Source: Hyphomicrobiales bacterium (lineage in GTDB: Bacteria > Pseudomonadota > Alphaproteobacteria > Rhizobiales > JAJFHB01). From it: 64,000 nucleotides of DNA. Below are positions 33,427 to 40,912 of this stretch, in pieces; positions within the stretch are counted from its first letter, which is position 1; each line of letters opens with the position of its first letter. The position numbers and the translations under genes are program-made. The stretch covers positions 124,001-188,000 of the forward strand of contig JAJFHE010000025.1 in assembly GCA_021775755.1 (NCBI GenBank), written 5' to 3'. The notes under the pieces were generated by a model, which was not told where the DNA came from, did no database searches, and worked only from the letters and a program-made list of their open reading frames with translations.

Positions 33427-34923
33427 TCAGTTTTCGTAGTTGTCGGACACCAGCCGGTCGAGCAACCGGACGCCATAGCCGGAGGCCCAACTGCGGCTGA
33501 TTTCCGTTTTCGGCGAATCCATGGCGGTGCCGGCAATGTCGATATGAACCCATGGCACGTCGTTGACGAAGCGCTGCAGGAATTGCGCCGCGGTAATCGA
33601 GCCCGCGTTGCGCCCGCCGATATTCTTCATGTCGGCATTCGGCGTGTCGATGAGCTTGTCATATGCTTTCGAGAGTGGCAGACGCCAGACTTTCTCGCCG
33701 GTCGCTTCGCCCGCGCCACTGAGGCGTTCGCACAGCTCATCGTCGTTTGAGAAAATACCAGCATGCTCCTTGCCGAGCGCCACCAGAATGGCACCGGTCA
33801 GCGTTGCAAGATTGATCATGAACCGGGGCTTGAAGCGGTCTTGGGTGTACCAAAGCGCGTCCGCCAGCACGAGGCGGCCTTCGGCGTCGGTGTTGAGAAT
33901 CTCGATGGTCTGACCGGACATCGACCGGATAATATCTCCTGGCCGTTGCGCGGCCGCGTCCGGCATGTTTTCCACAAGGCCGATAATGCCTATGGCGTTC
34001 ACCTTCGCCTTGCGTGCGGCCAGGGCATGCATGAGGCCGGTGACGCAGGCAGCACCGCCCATGTCACCCTTCATGTCTCCCATACCGGCGCCGGGCTTGA
34101 GGGAAATGCCGCCTGTATCGAAGGTTACGCCCTTGCCGACGAAAGCGACGGGCTTCTGGCCCTTGCGGCCGCCCTGCCATTGCATCACAACCAAACGGCT
34201 GTCACGGACCGAGCCAAGACCCACGCCCAGCAGCGAGTGCATCTGGAGCTTTTCCATGTCCTTTTCGGTGAGCACTTCCACCTTGACGCCGAGTTTGGTC
34301 AGCTTTTTTGCGCGTTTTGCAAACTCAACTGGATAAAGGATATTTGCCGGTTCGTTGACCAGGTCACGCGCGAGGTGAACACCTTCCGCGATGGCGCCGA
34401 GTGCGGCGTAGGCCTTGCGCGCGGCGGCGGCGCCCGCACTCATAACGGTTACGGCTTTCAGATCGCCGTTGCCATTATCGTCGCGCTTGGCGGCGGATTT
34501 ATACTTGTCAAATTTGTAGAGGCGCAGGCTCACGCCGGAGGCGAAGCGGCCGGCGAAATCGCCTGCATTCAGTTCGGCTCCCGCATGCAGTTCCGAGGCG
34601 ATGGAGAGTTTCCTGACGCGTGCCGAGGCAGCCCTGCCAGCCACCGAACCACCCAATTTTTCAACATCATAAGCCGCGAGGTCGCCCGAGGCCCCAAGCC
34701 CCACAAGGTAGATCCTGTCGAGTTTCAGCCCGTTCGGGGCGACAACATCAAGAATGGAGGCCTGTTTGCCGGTAAAATCAGCCGCTTTCATCGCGCGGCT
34801 GAGCTGCCCGCCTGTTGCAGCGTCGACCTCGGCGCCGAATCCGGCAAACTTCGCGCCTTTCGCGACGGTCAGGACAAGAGCACCGCTTTGCGGTACGGAC
34901 AGGGCTGAAAATTTCACGTTCAT
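33427..34923 (-). CDS. pepA: Leucyl aminopeptidase (M17)
   Basis: A 498-residue dizinc aminopeptidase. The M17 signature [14 protein letters not shown] is present. The metal and substrate site is visible in [27 protein letters not shown]. The N-terminal macro-like domain spans about residues 1-160. It acts in cytosolic peptide turnover. It is divergent from lptD across a 716-bp gap and is followed by holC. Confidence 0.95.
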
Positions 34924-35639
34924 GGGATGTTTGCCTCAATTCAATTCGCGGGTGCTCGGCCCTTCGTGGGCGGTAAAACGCTTACAATTTTCTTATCGGA
35001 CACGCCCGTGCCCAGCCTCTCTTAGCTGCTGCAGCCCTATCCGACAACTCCGGGAGTTGCGGGTCAGTGGATCTGCCAGTCGACTTCACGGAAGGATGCA
35101 ATCTGCAAACGGGAAACTTCCGCGCACATCACATTCTCGTCCACAAATCGTCCCGCGATGACCTTGAGGGCGCCAAATTGGAATGCGATTCGGCGTTCCG
35201 GGCACGGTTGATTTGTGGCTTTCCTGCACCGGGCCATTGCAGCCGTGCAACAGGTGTCACCTATTCGTCGCGATATTTACCGCAATACGATTTTTTCCAA
35301 TCGCAACAAAGGTTTTCGGATGCAAATCGAGGAGGAATCTACTAGCCTTCCTGCGAACGATCAGGCTAAAGTGGAGCGTAGAAAATTGAGCCGAGACGGC
35401 ACATTCACCCACCCCTTCCTGTACTGAGGGCCACAGTGAGGGGAAGGGAGTTTAGTGCTGAGTGACATATGCCGGAACGGCAAACGAAATACATGCCGGA
35501 ACGGCGAACGTAAAATGGCCGGGAAGGCTGGCGTAAAACGAATGAAGTTTGCTTGCACGAACGAGGGGAAACAAATCGCCGTGCGGAGACACACAAAAGG
35601 GGGAATACTGAACCAGTGACTGGTTTCGGTTGTCAGTGA
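34924..35639. other. Gene-poor interval between pepA and lptD (lptF/lptG absent)
   Basis: No frame here looks like a real gene. The short open frames have no family resemblance and unsuitable codon use. Related alphaproteobacteria usually carry lptF and lptG at this spot, just upstream of lptD. The stretch 35271-35350 is clearly AT-richer than its surroundings. The right end holds three degenerate copies of a short GCCGGAACGGC dyad. Confidence 0.6.
35471..35528. repeat. Three degenerate copies of a short dyad, about 24-bp period
   Basis: GCCGGAACGGC occurs at 35471-35481 and 35495-35505, and GCCGGGAAGGC at 35518-35528. Each can fold as a small hairpin (GCCG-GAA-CGGC), and each is followed by an A-rich CGTAAA-like tail. 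It resembles REP-like intergenic palindromes or a multi-site operator ahead of lptD. Confidence 0.65.
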
Positions 35640-37934
35640 ATGGCGGGTAACGAGCGACATCGGTTGCTGCACCGGCGCGGAAAGGCGCGGCGCGTTTTCG
35701 CGTGCGCCATTGCCTGCGCCTCTGCCGCCGTGCTGGCACTGCTGAGCCTGCCGCACACCGTGCAGGCGGCTACGAAGGACGAACAGCCCGTTCAGGTCGG
35801 CCTCATCGACAGCAATGATCGCGGCGCCCGGGCACCCGCCTATGTCGACCCGGGCCCTAATGCACCGATCAATGTCGACGCGGATCAGATGCAGCACGAC
35901 CGCAGCACAGGCGTCGTGACGGCGATCGGCGATGTGCTCATCGAGTACGGCCCCTACACCCTGATTGCCGACACCGTGGTTTACGACCCGCGACAGAACC
36001 TGATGACGGCAATCGGCAATGTTGTGTTCCGCGAACCCAACGGCAATATCGCGCGCTCGGAGCGTATGGTTCTAAGTGACGACTTCAAGGAAGGCTTTAT
36101 CGAGTACCTCCGCGTCACGCTGACCAACCGGGCGTGGATCATCGCGCAGACGTCGGAGCGGCACGGCAACGTCAATATCTTCTACAACGTCACCTATTCA
36201 CGCTGTAACGAATGCATCACCGACAATGGCACGCCCCTGTGGCAGCTTCGATCGCGCCAAGTCACCCACGACATGGACGAGCGCCGGCTCTACTACGAGG
36301 ATTCCACCCTTGAGTTTCTCGGCGTGCCGATATTCGGCCTGCCGTGGATGTCGCAGCCCGATCCGAGCGTCAACAAGGCTTCCGGTTTCCTCCTGCCACG
36401 TATCATTACGTCGGACGAACTCGGTGTCGGTGTCGAAATTCCGTATTTCTGGAACCTCGCTCCGCATTACGACGTGACGTTCCGGCCGACGGTCACGACA
36501 CGCCAGGGCCTTTTGTTGCAGACCGACTGGCGCCACCGGCTGGCGAACGGCCAGTACGACATAACGATAGCTGGAATTTATCAGCTTGACCCGGGCGTCA
36601 CTCCGCCGGGCGACCGGCGCTTTCGCGGCAGCGTCTCCTCAGCCGGTTCGTTCAGCCTCAACGAGCATTGGGACTGGGGCTGGGACGGCACGGCCACCAC
36701 CGATGACACGTTCCTGAGATCCTACAAAATCAACCGGCGGACCGATCTGATATCGCAACTCTACCTGATCGGCCTCAATGATCGTAACTACTTCGACGGC
36801 CGAGCATATTCGTTCCAGGGATTGCTGGCGGCTGACGATAACGACACCATTCCCTATGCCCTGCCCGCGATCCATCACTACTACTATTTCGATCAAGCGG
36901 TGTTCGGCGGCGAACTCGGGTTAGATACGCATATCTACAACCTGCAGCGCGACATTGGTGCCGACTCGGCGCGCCTTACCAGCGAACTGCACTGGCAGAA
37001 CCGTATTGTGAACGACTACGGGCAGGTCATTACGCCGTTTGCCGGGGTGCGCGGCGATGTCTACATCGTGGACAACGTTCCCGACCCGACCGTGCTCGGC
37101 GGTTTCCGGGGCCAGGAAACCGTGGCGCGTGTGTTCCCGACGGCGGGCGTCGACGTGCGCTGGCCGTTCTCGCGCGCAACCGAAAATACGACGCAGATTT
37201 TCGAGCCGGTCGGACAGATCATCACGTCAACGAACGAAACGAATACCGATCAGTTGCCCAACGAAGACAGCATCCAGTTTGAATTCGATGCGTCGAACAT
37301 TTTCCTGCAGAACAAGTTCAACGGCATTGACCGTGTCGAAGGCGGCACACGTGCCAATATCGGCGCCAATTACACGGTGCTCTTCAATGATGGATCGTTC
37401 ATCCGTGCAACGGCGGGTGAAACATTCCACATTGCCGGCGACAACAGCTTCGGCGCCGGCACCGGACTTGATACGACGCGCTCCGATTTCATTGCCGGCA
37501 TCGCATTCCAACCGATCCAGAATGTTCGCGTTTCATCGATGATGCGCTTCGATGAAGACACCTTCGATATCGAGCGTCACGATCTATCGGCACACGGTGT
37601 CTTTGGGCCAGTCACCATTAGTGCCCACTACAGCGACTTGGCGCGAGCTGCGGCCTTTGGCCGACCGTTCGCGACCGAGCAGATCAATGTGGGCGGAACG
37701 CTCTCGCTTTCGGACTACTGGCAGATTTTCGGCGGCTTCCGCTATGACATCCGCCTTGACAAGCAGATCAGCAACGTTGTCGGCCTAAGGTTCCTGTGCG
37801 AGTGCTTCAAGGCGGAACTGGTCTACAGCGAAAACTTTACCTCCGATCGGGAAGTCGATCCCGATACGTCGATCATGCTCAACGTCATTTTCAAGACACT
37901 CGGCGGCGGAAGCATCAGATCGGAAATCGATTAG
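35640..37934 (+). CDS. lptD: LPS-assembly outer membrane protein LptD
   Basis: A 764-residue outer-membrane protein that inserts LPS into the outer leaflet with LptE. A long charged signal region ends in VQAATKD (about residue 45). An OstA/LptA-like beta-jellyroll follows (about 80-180: NVDADQMQHDRSTGVVTAIGDV), then a large C-terminal barrel. The motif CNECITDNGTPLWQLRSRQVTHD with paired cysteines is typical of alphaproteobacterial LptD. A late C-x-C (LCECF) could complete the disulfides. It heads lptD-surA-pdxA-rsmA. Confidence 0.94.
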   Translation: MAGNERHRLLHRRGKARRVFACAIACASAAVLALLSLPHTVQAATKDEQPVQVGLIDSNDRGARAPAYVDPGPNAPINVDADQMQHDRSTGVVTAIGDVLIEYGPYTLIADTVVYDPRQNLMTAIGNVVFREPNGNIARSERMVLSDDFKEGFIEYLRVTLTNRAWIIAQTSERHGNVNIFYNVTYSRCNECITDNGTPLWQLRSRQVTHDMDERRLYYEDSTLEFLGVPIFGLPWMSQPDPSVNKASGFLLPRIITSDELGVGVEIPYFWNLAPHYDVTFRPTVTTRQGLLLQTDWRHRLANGQYDITIAGIYQLDPGVTPPGDRRFRGSVSSAGSFSLNEHWDWGWDGTATTDDTFLRSYKINRRTDLISQLYLIGLNDRNYFDGRAYSFQGLLAADDNDTIPYALPAIHHYYYFDQAVFGGELGLDTHIYNLQRDIGADSARLTSELHWQNRIVNDYGQVITPFAGVRGDVYIVDNVPDPTVLGGFRGQETVARVFPTAGVDVRWPFSRATENTTQIFEPVGQIITSTNETNTDQLPNEDSIQFEFDASNIFLQNKFNGIDRVEGGTRANIGANYTVLFNDGSFIRATAGETFHIAGDNSFGAGTGLDTTRSDFIAGIAFQPIQNVRVSSMMRFDEDTFDIERHDLSAHGVFGPVTISAHYSDLARAAAFGRPFATEQINVGGTLSLSDYWQIFGGFRYDIRLDKQISNVVGLRFLCECFKAELVYSENFTSDREVDPDTSIMLNVIFKTLGGGSIRSEID

Positions 37935-38025: not shown

Positions 38026-39024
38026 ATGCCGTTTTGCAAGACCATGATCAAAAACAACAATATCCTGCCCTTCACCTGGATCGTCTGTGCGCTGTTAGTC
38101 GCGGCTGCGGCAATTTGGGTGCCGCAGATACAAATTGCGGATGCGCAAAGCTCAGGCAGCCTCGTTGCTATCGTCAATGACGAGCCCATATCCGAGTACG
38201 ACGTTTCCCAGCGCGTACAGTTCAACAAGACCATGCGCGGCGCGCGCGGCGGCTCGTTACAGCTGCGCCAGGAGGCGTTGCGAGAACTGATCGACAACAC
38301 GCTCAAGCGCCAGGAAGCCGAGCGGTTCAGTCTCGGCGTCACCGACCTCCAGGTCGATCAAAGCCTGGAAGGCATGGCGGCGCGCGCCGGCGCCAGCACA
38401 CACGACTGGAGTGCGGGCCTGCGTAGCGAAGGCATCGAAATCAAAACGGTGAGAGAAGAGATCCAGTCTTCACTTGCCTGGCGCCGCGTGGTGACACTCA
38501 GGTTCGGCCGGCGCATTCAGGTCGAGACGGAAGATGTCGACCGCGAGTACCAGGTTGTCGAAGAGACGTCCGCACAGGTGCGCTACGTCTACGTGATCCA
38601 GCGCATCCTCCTGCCGCTTGAAAGCGATGCCACATCGCAATTGCGCCAGGCGCGGTTGCGTGACGCACACACGGTGATGGGGCGCATCAGCGGATGCCGC
38701 TCGATCAGCAATGCGACGTCCGGCGTCTTCAACAAGCGCATCTTCAATGCCCAGCGCATACCGGCCGAGGGTCTGTCGGGGCCGTTGAAGCGGGCGCTGG
38801 ATCAGGTGGGCCCGGGACATGCCATCGGCCCAGCTCCCGATCCCGGTGGCGTTCTGGTCATCGTCTACTGCAACCGCGAATCCATCGAAGCGCCGCGGCC
38901 CACGCGCGAACAGGTCGAAGATGCGCTCCTGCAGCGCAAATTCGACCGTATCGGCGAGCAGTTCCTGCGCGATCTCAGGCGCGACGCCATCATCGAGTAC
39001 CGCGATCCCGAACTGGCATCGTGA
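38026..39024 (+). CDS. surA: SurA-like periplasmic chaperone (SurA N-terminal domain, degenerate rotamase)
   Basis: A 332-residue exported protein. A signal or anchor (about residues 13-35, ending ADAQS) is followed by the SurA N-domain start SLVAIVNDEPISEYDVSQRVQF and ALRELIDNTLKRQEA. The central region aligns only weakly with parvulin rotamase domains, so chaperone function is more likely than isomerase. An ATG at 38044 is an equally good start. Position between lptD and pdxA supports the name. Confidence 0.87.
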   Translation: MPFCKTMIKNNNILPFTWIVCALLVAAAAIWVPQIQIADAQSSGSLVAIVNDEPISEYDVSQRVQFNKTMRGARGGSLQLRQEALRELIDNTLKRQEAERFSLGVTDLQVDQSLEGMAARAGASTHDWSAGLRSEGIEIKTVREEIQSSLAWRRVVTLRFGRRIQVETEDVDREYQVVEETSAQVRYVYVIQRILLPLESDATSQLRQARLRDAHTVMGRISGCRSISNATSGVFNKRIFNAQRIPAEGLSGPLKRALDQVGPGHAIGPAPDPGGVLVIVYCNRESIEAPRPTREQVEDALLQRKFDRIGEQFLRDLRRDAIIEYRDPELAS

Positions 39025-39051: not shown

Positions 39052-40074
39052 ATGACCCGGACGCCTCCACCTCTTGCCATGACCATGGGCGAGCCGGCGG
39101 GCGTCGGGCCGGAGATCACCGTGAAGGCGTGGTGCGCGCGCACCGCCACCGGGCAACTCCCCTGGATTTACCTCGGCGATCCCGACCTGCTCCGCACGGC
39201 GTCTTCCACTCTCGGCGAAGACATACAGGTTTGCGAGATTGAGGACGCCGCGGACGCAACGGATACCTGGCATGTTGCAATCCCGGTTTTGAAAGTCGAA
39301 ACCAGTGAAGCCGTAAAACCCGGCGCGCCGACAAAAACCAATGCAGCGGCAACTGTTTCTGCCATAGATCTTGCCGTTGATCTCGCACGCAGCGGCGAGG
39401 TGTCAGGCATTGTCACCAACCCGATCCAGAAGTCGGTTCTTTACGAGGCCGGATTTGCGTTTCCAGGGCACACGGAATATCTGGCACATCTGAGCGGCGC
39501 TACGACCGGTGCGGTAATGATGCTGGTTGCGGGATCGCTGCGCACGGTTCCCGTGACCATTCACATTCCCTTGTCTGAAGTGTTCGAGGCGCTTAGCACC
39601 GGCCTCATCGTCGCTACCGTCACGACCGTTGCCCGCGATTTGAGCTCACGATTTGCGGTCGAGCGGCCGCGCATCGCGGTTTCAGGACTCAATCCCCATG
39701 CCGGCGAGAGCGGCGCACTGGGCTGTGAGGAAACGGAAATCATCGCGCCGGCGATTGCGCATCTGCGGGAGGCCGGCATCGATGCGTTTGGCCCACTGCC
39801 CGCCGATACGATGTTTCATGCAGCGGCGCGGAAAAACTACGATGCCGCCGTTTGCATGTACCACGATCAGGCGCTCATTCCGGTCAAGACCGTGGGCTTC
39901 GACACTGGCGTCAACTGCACGCTCGGCCTGCCGTTTATCCGCACATCCCCCGACCATGGCACGGCGCTCGATATTGCCGGAACCGGCAAGGCGCATGCCG
40001 ACAGCCTGATCGCTTCGATCAAACTTGCGCAGGAGCTCGCCAGCAACGTTCGTGAGCGCCATGAGCATGCCTGA
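39052..40074 (+). CDS. pdxA: 4-hydroxythreonine-4-phosphate dehydrogenase
   Basis: A 340-residue NAD-dependent enzyme of vitamin B6 synthesis. [13 protein letters not shown] is the N-terminal motif. Metal-binding histidines are visible in [21 protein letters not shown] and [12 protein letters not shown]. The C-terminal 14 bases overlap the rsmA start, as often seen for this pair. Confidence 0.96.
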
Positions 40075-40912
40075 CCTGCCACCGCTTCGCGAGGTTATAG
40101 ACCGCCACGGCCTCAGAGCGCGAAAGTCGCTTGGCCAGAACTTTCTCCTGGATCAAAACCTGACGGACAAGATCGTGCGGGCGGTCGGACCGCTCGACGG
40201 TTTGACCGTCGTGGAAGTCGGGCCAGGACCGGGCGGCCTTACGAGAAGCCTGTTGCAGAGCGGCGCTGAGAAGATTGTTGCGCTGGAACGGGATCCGCGC
40301 TGTTTACCCGCTCTTGCCGAACTCAGCACGGCCTATCCGGGCCGGCTGAAGATATTGGAGCAGGATGCCCTGACCGTGGACTGGGGCCAGCTTGTTTCGG
40401 GGCCGGCCGCCATTGTTGCCAATCTGCCCTACAACATCGCCACACCGTTGCTGACGGGATGGCTGTGTTCGGAGCCCTGGCCACCCTGGTACACATCGAT
40501 GACGCTGATGTTTCAAAAAGAGGTCGCCGACCGGATCCGGGCTAAGCCCGGCTCGCGAACCTACGGTCGCTTGAGCGTTATTTCGCAGTGGCGCTGCACC
40601 GTGGAGCACCGGTTCGATATCCCGGCGCGCGCTTTTACGCCGCCGCCGAAAGTTGACTCAACCGTTGTCGGTTTCACGCCGCGCGCCTCCCCTGCGCCGG
40701 CCTGCGAGCGCGCCTCGCTGGAGCGCGTGACACAGGCGGCGTTTGGCCAGCGCCGCAAAATGCTGCGCTCAAGCCTGAAGTCCCTCGGTGTCGAAGTCTC
40801 CGCTCTCCTGCACGCATCGGGCCTTGCCGGCGACATCAGGGCGGAACAAATCGATGTTGCAGGATTTTGCAGACTTGCCGCATGTCTGGACGCGCTCGAT
40901 ACTGGTAGATAA
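40061..40912 (+). CDS. rsmA: 16S rRNA dimethyltransferase RsmA (KsgA)
   Basis: A 283-residue enzyme that dimethylates the two adjacent adenines near the 3' end of 16S r[21 protein letters not shown] and [16 protein letters not shown] are the classic motifs, and [14 protein letters not shown] is the catalytic N-L-P-Y. A C-terminal helical domain carries [13 protein letters not shown]. The start overlaps pdxA by 14 bases, so the pair is coupled. Starting at ATG 40067 would drop two residues. Confidence 0.95.

Follow-up and report, generated by a model that had tools for sequence, protein, structure and literature searches.

The LPS exporter of E. coli, LptB2FGC-A-DE, is built of the same protein families as the system considered here, from which it differs in the cargo and in the clade of the permease paralogues. 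In Caulobacter crescentus, the cluster CC_1168-CC_1152 encodes LptC2, LptF2 and LptG2, with LptF/LptG paralogues lying among ceramide genes, and the authors propose, in the part of their paper used here, that sphingolipids are transported like LPS via LptC2/LptF2/LptG2, a proposal that is unproven there and is accompanied by the statement that the route of bacterial sphingolipids to the outer membrane is unknown (PMC11324152). According to the same part of that paper, Sphingomonas koreensis lacks LPS, and Caulobacter makes LPS and retains the ordinary machine, unlike the genome analyzed here, in which neither LPS genes nor LPS permeases were found (PMC11324152). The LPS-free Borrelia burgdorferi possesses an Lpt-orthologous system, that is, an Lpt bridge without LPS as in our reading of the present genome, but the organism is distant, its glycolipid cargo was proposed from modelling, and the system is not linked to a sphingolipid cluster in the part of the report used here (PMC10353723). 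Sphingomonas resembles that reading in having sphingolipid instead of LPS and differs in belonging to another order. Orthologues of LptF2/LptG2 have reportedly been found in S. wittichii and Z. mobilis. A search of the open-access literature turned up neither a description of LPS-free Hyphomicrobiales nor a sphingolipid Lpt pathway that had been put to the test, which is weak evidence of absence; what is new here is the joint loss, across the order Hyphomicrobiales, of LPS and its permeases while the bridge was kept.

The genome in question (G000, order Hyphomicrobiales) comprises 5.47 Mb in 77 contigs and is 99.45% complete, with 3.88% contamination. The window, the whole stretch of 64,000 nucleotides that was analyzed, contains at 33427..34923 on the minus strand an ORF of 498 amino acids for the leucyl aminopeptidase PepA, the upstream border of the locus, and at 35640..37934 on the plus strand lptD, which encodes the outer-membrane translocon (PF04453, E 2.7e-67; best E 3.2e-21 against solved LptD structures in a phmmer search) and is the sole lptD found in the genome. 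Downstream of lptD follow, on the plus strand, the conserved neighbours surA (38026..39024), which encodes a periplasmic chaperone, pdxA (39052..40074) and rsmA (40025..40912, the longest ORF, with the true start probably further in), all three identified by synteny; the product names across the locus come from gene order and homology to the relatives' loci, supplemented for LptD by PF04453. The divergent pepA and lptD are separated by only 716 bp (34924..35639), the seat of the LPS-type lptF-lptG in LPS-bearing relatives, and a tblastn search with 13 LptF/LptG queries found no remnant of either gene in the gap (best E 0.20). The first-pass annotation, which had pointed out the missing permease genes and the otherwise conserved gene order, is thus borne out on both counts.

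The same annotation described the gap as an AT-rich scar with dyad repeats. The AT-richness is mild (GC content of 53.5% compared with 60.8% for the window, the seven called gaps of the window longer than 150 bp spanning 47-64%), and the repeats, namely, one doubled 21-mer, two further direct repeats present in two copies each, and inverted arms of 13 nt separated by 270-294 nt, are unremarkable. Accordingly, both a degraded lptF/lptG remnant (tblastn best E 0.20) and a repeat-made scar (slight repeats) were rejected. A 57-bp stretch of the gap (35293-35349 of the window) is about 72% alike to the sequence upstream of lptD in the family relative G002 (E 1e-4), and could be a promoter or leader of lptD.

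For LPS-bearing relatives, a gap of this size is abnormal. The spacing between pepA and lptD, estimated in 25 relatives from tblastn ends extended to the query start, ranges from 83 to 798 bp in the 16 LPS-less ones, with pepA divergent from lptD in all 16, compared with 2467-2709 bp, holding lptF-lptG, in the nine LPS-bearing relatives; the two genes were located there in LPS-bearing G004, G009, G022, G030 and G013. The estimate excludes G007, G055, G085 and G114, where pepA does not adjoin lptD, G002, whose contig starts just before lptD, G003 (LptD not found, 61% complete), G008 (lptD elsewhere) and G010 (contig end). In the family f5, the order lptD-surA-pdxA-rsmA is kept and pepA is not adjoining. 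In G114, a single-contig LPS-less genome, lptD (within L159, 4124001-4140000) is split into two parts that lie in adjacent frames, owing either to an error in the sequence or to decay of the gene.

The lptF/lptG genes are gone from the locus because the bacterium seems to have abandoned LPS. LpxC is absent in G000 and its three family relatives, and altogether in seven genomes of the set of 31 relatives; LpxB is missing from the same seven and also from the LpxC-bearing G009, G012 and G019, which makes LpxB a weak marker by itself. Of the 52 genomes tested, 26 lack KdtA, namely, the 23 without LpxC together with G167, G185 and G200, and the other 26 have it. G167, G185 and G200 have no LpxC other than a divergent copy (E about 1e-67 to 1e-70), and their initial assignment as LPS-bearing on the strength of the LpxC match was dropped given the absence of KdtA. 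Judging from these three enzymes, G000 very probably makes no LPS. With LpxC, LpxB and KdtA all absent, LPS export probably lacks a substrate, and the earlier suggestion that LPS export would rely on an unusual LptB2 partner, or that LPS would be altered, is superseded.

The rest of the bridge is in place. A genome-wide search of the kind that the first-pass annotation had proposed recovered LptA, LptB, LptC and two pairs of LptF/LptG homologues. The lptC, lptA and lptB genes lie beside rpoN on contig C10, with LptB well above its family threshold (TIGR04406, 366 bits for a cut-off of 240) and LptA over the Pfam cut-off and under that of TIGR03002 (57.2 of 71.7); there is one lptD (PF04453). 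By homology, then, the parts of the trans-envelope bridge, LptB, LptC, LptA and LptD, are present in G000.

Four PF03739 genes were identified, a pair on contig C13 (209 and 196 bits) and a pair on contig C38 (84 and 63 bits, for a cut-off of 27.9), and on these profile matches both pairs belong to the LptF/LptG permease superfamily. Compared with solved LptF chains, the C13 LptF yields E 1.1e-15, and no solved-structure relative of the C38 LptF was found by sequence. The C13 pair falls below the LPS-permease equivalog cut-offs (LptF 201.1 for TIGR04407, cut-off 230; LptG 211.7 for TIGR04408, cut-off 240); among the controls, 3/3 LPS-locus LptG, 1/3 LPS-locus LptF (228.7, 274.7 and 226.6) and 0/4 sphingolipid-type LptF/G exceed them. 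A tree computed from 74 LptF/LptG proteins by a quick search, with SH-aLRT support only, separates the LPS-locus from the sphingolipid-cluster sequences in both halves (support of 98 and 87 in the G half, 94 and 93 in the F half); the C13 pair lies outside the clade of the pepA-lptD locus genes, and the C38 pair with its relatives forms a third group. The LPS-bearing G009 carries an LPS-locus pair and, on another contig, a sphingolipid-cluster pair that is 55-59% identical to that of G000 (the match of the G009 LPS-locus LptG to LptG1 is only 22%), and the LPS-bearing G037 is a second genome with both kinds. The coupling-helix Glu, which is required for LptB docking in E. coli according to the part of that study used here (PMC5082905), is kept in 42/42 sphingolipid-cluster LptF/G sequences and in 20/21 LPS-locus ones.

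The C13 pair (L005, 9440-11736) is flanked on one side by an MsbA-like ABC exporter, nucleotidyltransferases and a phosphoesterase, and on the other side by a CDP-alcohol transferase, a DAGK-type kinase, serine palmitoyltransferase (SPT; NF047599, 589.8 bits for a cut-off of 500), an ACP, an NAD-dependent reductase and a fatty acyl-AMP ligase; in close relatives, the C13-type LptF/LptG sit in the same cluster. A protein of 388 amino acids without a Pfam match is, by position, the candidate ceramide synthase. The adjoining SPT and ceramide genes are what one would expect of an LptF2/LptG2 pair of the Caulobacter sphingolipid cluster, and in gene neighbourhood the C13 pair fits this type; as described in the part of the Caulobacter paper used here, the two clusters have in common SPT, ACP, the reductase, the acyl ligase and the flippase. 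A counterpart of the Caulobacter LptC2 is not among the genes recognized in the C13 cluster.

The C38 pair precedes a reducing type I polyketide synthase and an SPT/BioF-like aminotransferase (L006, C38 13000-32999; L188, C38 32500-52499), and around it are encoded a myo-inositol-1-phosphate synthase, a mannose-1-phosphate guanylyltransferase-like protein, PgpA, a CdsA-like protein, a short-chain dehydrogenase, a GT4 glycosyltransferase and an FGGY kinase. G002 carries a C38-type pair with GT4 and FGGY, and the C38-type LptG of both G000 and G002 has Gln at the site of the coupling-helix Glu. A C38-type pair with its own LptB-like ATPase is present in the LPS-bearing G022 (L052, 196001-216000), next to SPT-like, ketosynthase, MaoC, PgpA, inositol synthase and GT4 genes. 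Gene content suggests that the C38 pair could be a putative permease pair, or export module, for an inositol-bearing, perhaps mannosylated, lipid.

To place these observations in the order, 199 genomes at least 95% complete were surveyed, 178 with LpxC and 21 without; 20 of these 21 are named, and the last was inferred to be G195, which is outside the listed LpxC matches and lacks KdtA. An LPS-type LptG is encoded in 175 of the 178 genomes with LpxC compared with one of the 21 without (Fisher p 2.5e-23, ignoring kinship), the line for this type (profile A2, E 1.6e-44 or better) being drawn post hoc, with the next group at 1e-37 or worse and the family f6 close to it. The exceptions are G167, G185 and G200, which have LpxC and lack KdtA and an LPS-type LptG, and, in the reverse direction, G017, in which LpxC, LpxB and KdtA are absent despite an LPS-type LptG. 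In G017, this gene (L050, contig C197) adjoins another LptF/G-family gene, which has the opposite orientation, is surrounded by polysaccharide-transport-like genes, and is not at lptD. A non-LPS-type LptF (profile A1, at least 189 bits) was detected in 27 genomes, of which 18 belong to the 21 without LpxC and nine to the 178 with it. The LPS-less genomes include two named organisms, Aestuariivirga litoralis KCTC 52945 (G066) and Thermopetrobacter sp. TC1 (G025), each identified by a shared 300-base stretch, and the single-contig G055 and G114, which show the same absences as G000.

When the LPS-less set is defined as the 21 genomes without LpxC plus G167, G185 and G200 (n=24), LptD and a non-LPS-type LptF are kept in all 21 SPT-bearing members (in G114 with LptD in two pieces), and the three members without SPT over the line used (G051, G064 and G082) have neither LptD nor any LptF/LptG profile match. 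These three genomes of a diderm order, G051 and G082 from the family f48 and the 1.4-Mb G064 from f21, also lack LpxC and KdtA, and seem, by their gene content, to be devoid of LPS as well as of the Lpt permeases and translocon. Among 19 LPS-bearing controls picked regardless of SPT, none has SPT over the cut-off (G050 reaches 466 of 500 bits), and none was found in the LPS-bearing G148, tested outside these controls. Of the 21 SPT-bearing LPS-less genomes, 16 encode LptF no more than about 8 kb from SPT; this proximity was not seen in G017 and G141, where the genes are on different contigs of a draft, or in G025, G096 and G161, the latter two having only unpaired LptF-like genes in the stretches examined.

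The genus g36 of the family f34 is mixed with respect to LPS: G037, G073, G127 and G148 have the LPS genes and an LPS-type LptG, as opposed to G103, G167, G185 and G200. In G037, the LPS pair is in place, whereas in the latter four pepA directly adjoins lptD. A second, divergent LpxC copy persists in G167, G185 and G200. On a tree of rsmA, pdxA and pepA for 32 genomes (G141, with one of the three genes, excluded), four changes of the LPS state are needed, at least three of these on well-supported branches; such a tree treats loss and gain alike, but regain at exactly the pepA-lptD junction is the less probable of the two. The best reading is a repeated joint loss of LPS and its dedicated permeases, with the Lpt bridge retained for sphingolipids.

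From the observed gene losses, clades, clusters and co-retention, we infer the absence of LPS from the cell and a series of transport steps. The ceramide would be made by the SPT, ACP, reductase, acyl-AMP ligase and candidate ceramide synthase of the C13 cluster, and would receive its head group via the kinase and the CDP-alcohol transferase; the MsbA-like ABC protein would then flip the head group-bearing ceramide. The sphingolipid-type LptF/G, presumably capable of working with the ordinary LptB and driven by it, would extract the lipid from the inner membrane, and the sphingolipid would pass through LptC-LptA to LptD and fill the outer leaflet in place of LPS. That this lineage lost LPS and the LPS-dedicated LptF/LptG, and retained LptB, LptC, LptA and LptD with the sphingolipid-cluster LptF/G pair for sphingolipid, appears to us likely.

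The first-pass annotation left open whether the permease genes had moved elsewhere or been lost, and held that finding lptF/lptG at one relocated place in all close relatives would reveal an old, harmless rearrangement. On such a scenario, the LPS permease genes would have been relocated long ago to C13, with LPS still exported, and the LptF/LptG homologues on C13, in the same cluster in relatives, do look like a match. The match is only apparent because the C13-type genes are different paralogues, and G009 and G037 hold both kinds; relocation was rejected by the 74-protein tree, in which the C13 pair belongs to a separate clade and therefore is not the missing LPS pair. The position of the C13 pair under the NCBIfam LPS-permease cut-offs points the same way, although two of the three LPS-locus LptF controls narrowly miss theirs too, and so does the absence of LpxC, LpxB and KdtA. 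Relocation is thus very improbable, and of the two options it is loss that stands. Still more remote is an assembly artefact, with the LPS genes and lptFG in sequence missing from the draft: the genome is in 77 contigs, but the gap lies within one contig with both flanks intact, and these genes are likewise missing from relatives, among them the single-contig G055 and G114.

A more serious competitor, albeit an unlikely one, accepts the loss of LPS and holds that the Lpt bridge carries other lipids, such as inositol glycolipids, polyketide lipids or glycolipids, the sphingolipid link being shared neighbourhood only. The location of the C38 pair within an inositol-lipid/polyketide cluster, the single LptD that serves all, and the Lpt-like system without LPS described for Borrelia in the part of that report used here (PMC10353723) are compatible with this possibility. 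The clean co-retention with SPT (21/21 vs 0/3) and the presence of SPT within about 8 kb of LptF in 16/21 genomes argue against it.

A broader version of the sphingolipid reading, under which natural LPS-free diderms make up several Hyphomicrobiales families and a part, though not all, of one further genus, with the whole Lpt bridge given over to sphingolipid, and the second pair in G000 feeds an inositol/mannose-type, polyketide-derived lipid into the same LptD, is put forward tentatively, at slightly worse than even chances. If it is true, Lpt would be a general lipid bridge, with the cargo set by exchangeable LptF/G pairs. Lineages that have the sphingolipid-type LptF/G only, and one LptD, separate sphingolipid transport from LPS export, and therefore the question becomes testable without interference from LPS, and the genus f34/g36 offers a close before/after comparison for the loss of LPS and the LPS permeases. 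The presence of LptD or LptF/G in a genome is, then, not proof of LPS production.
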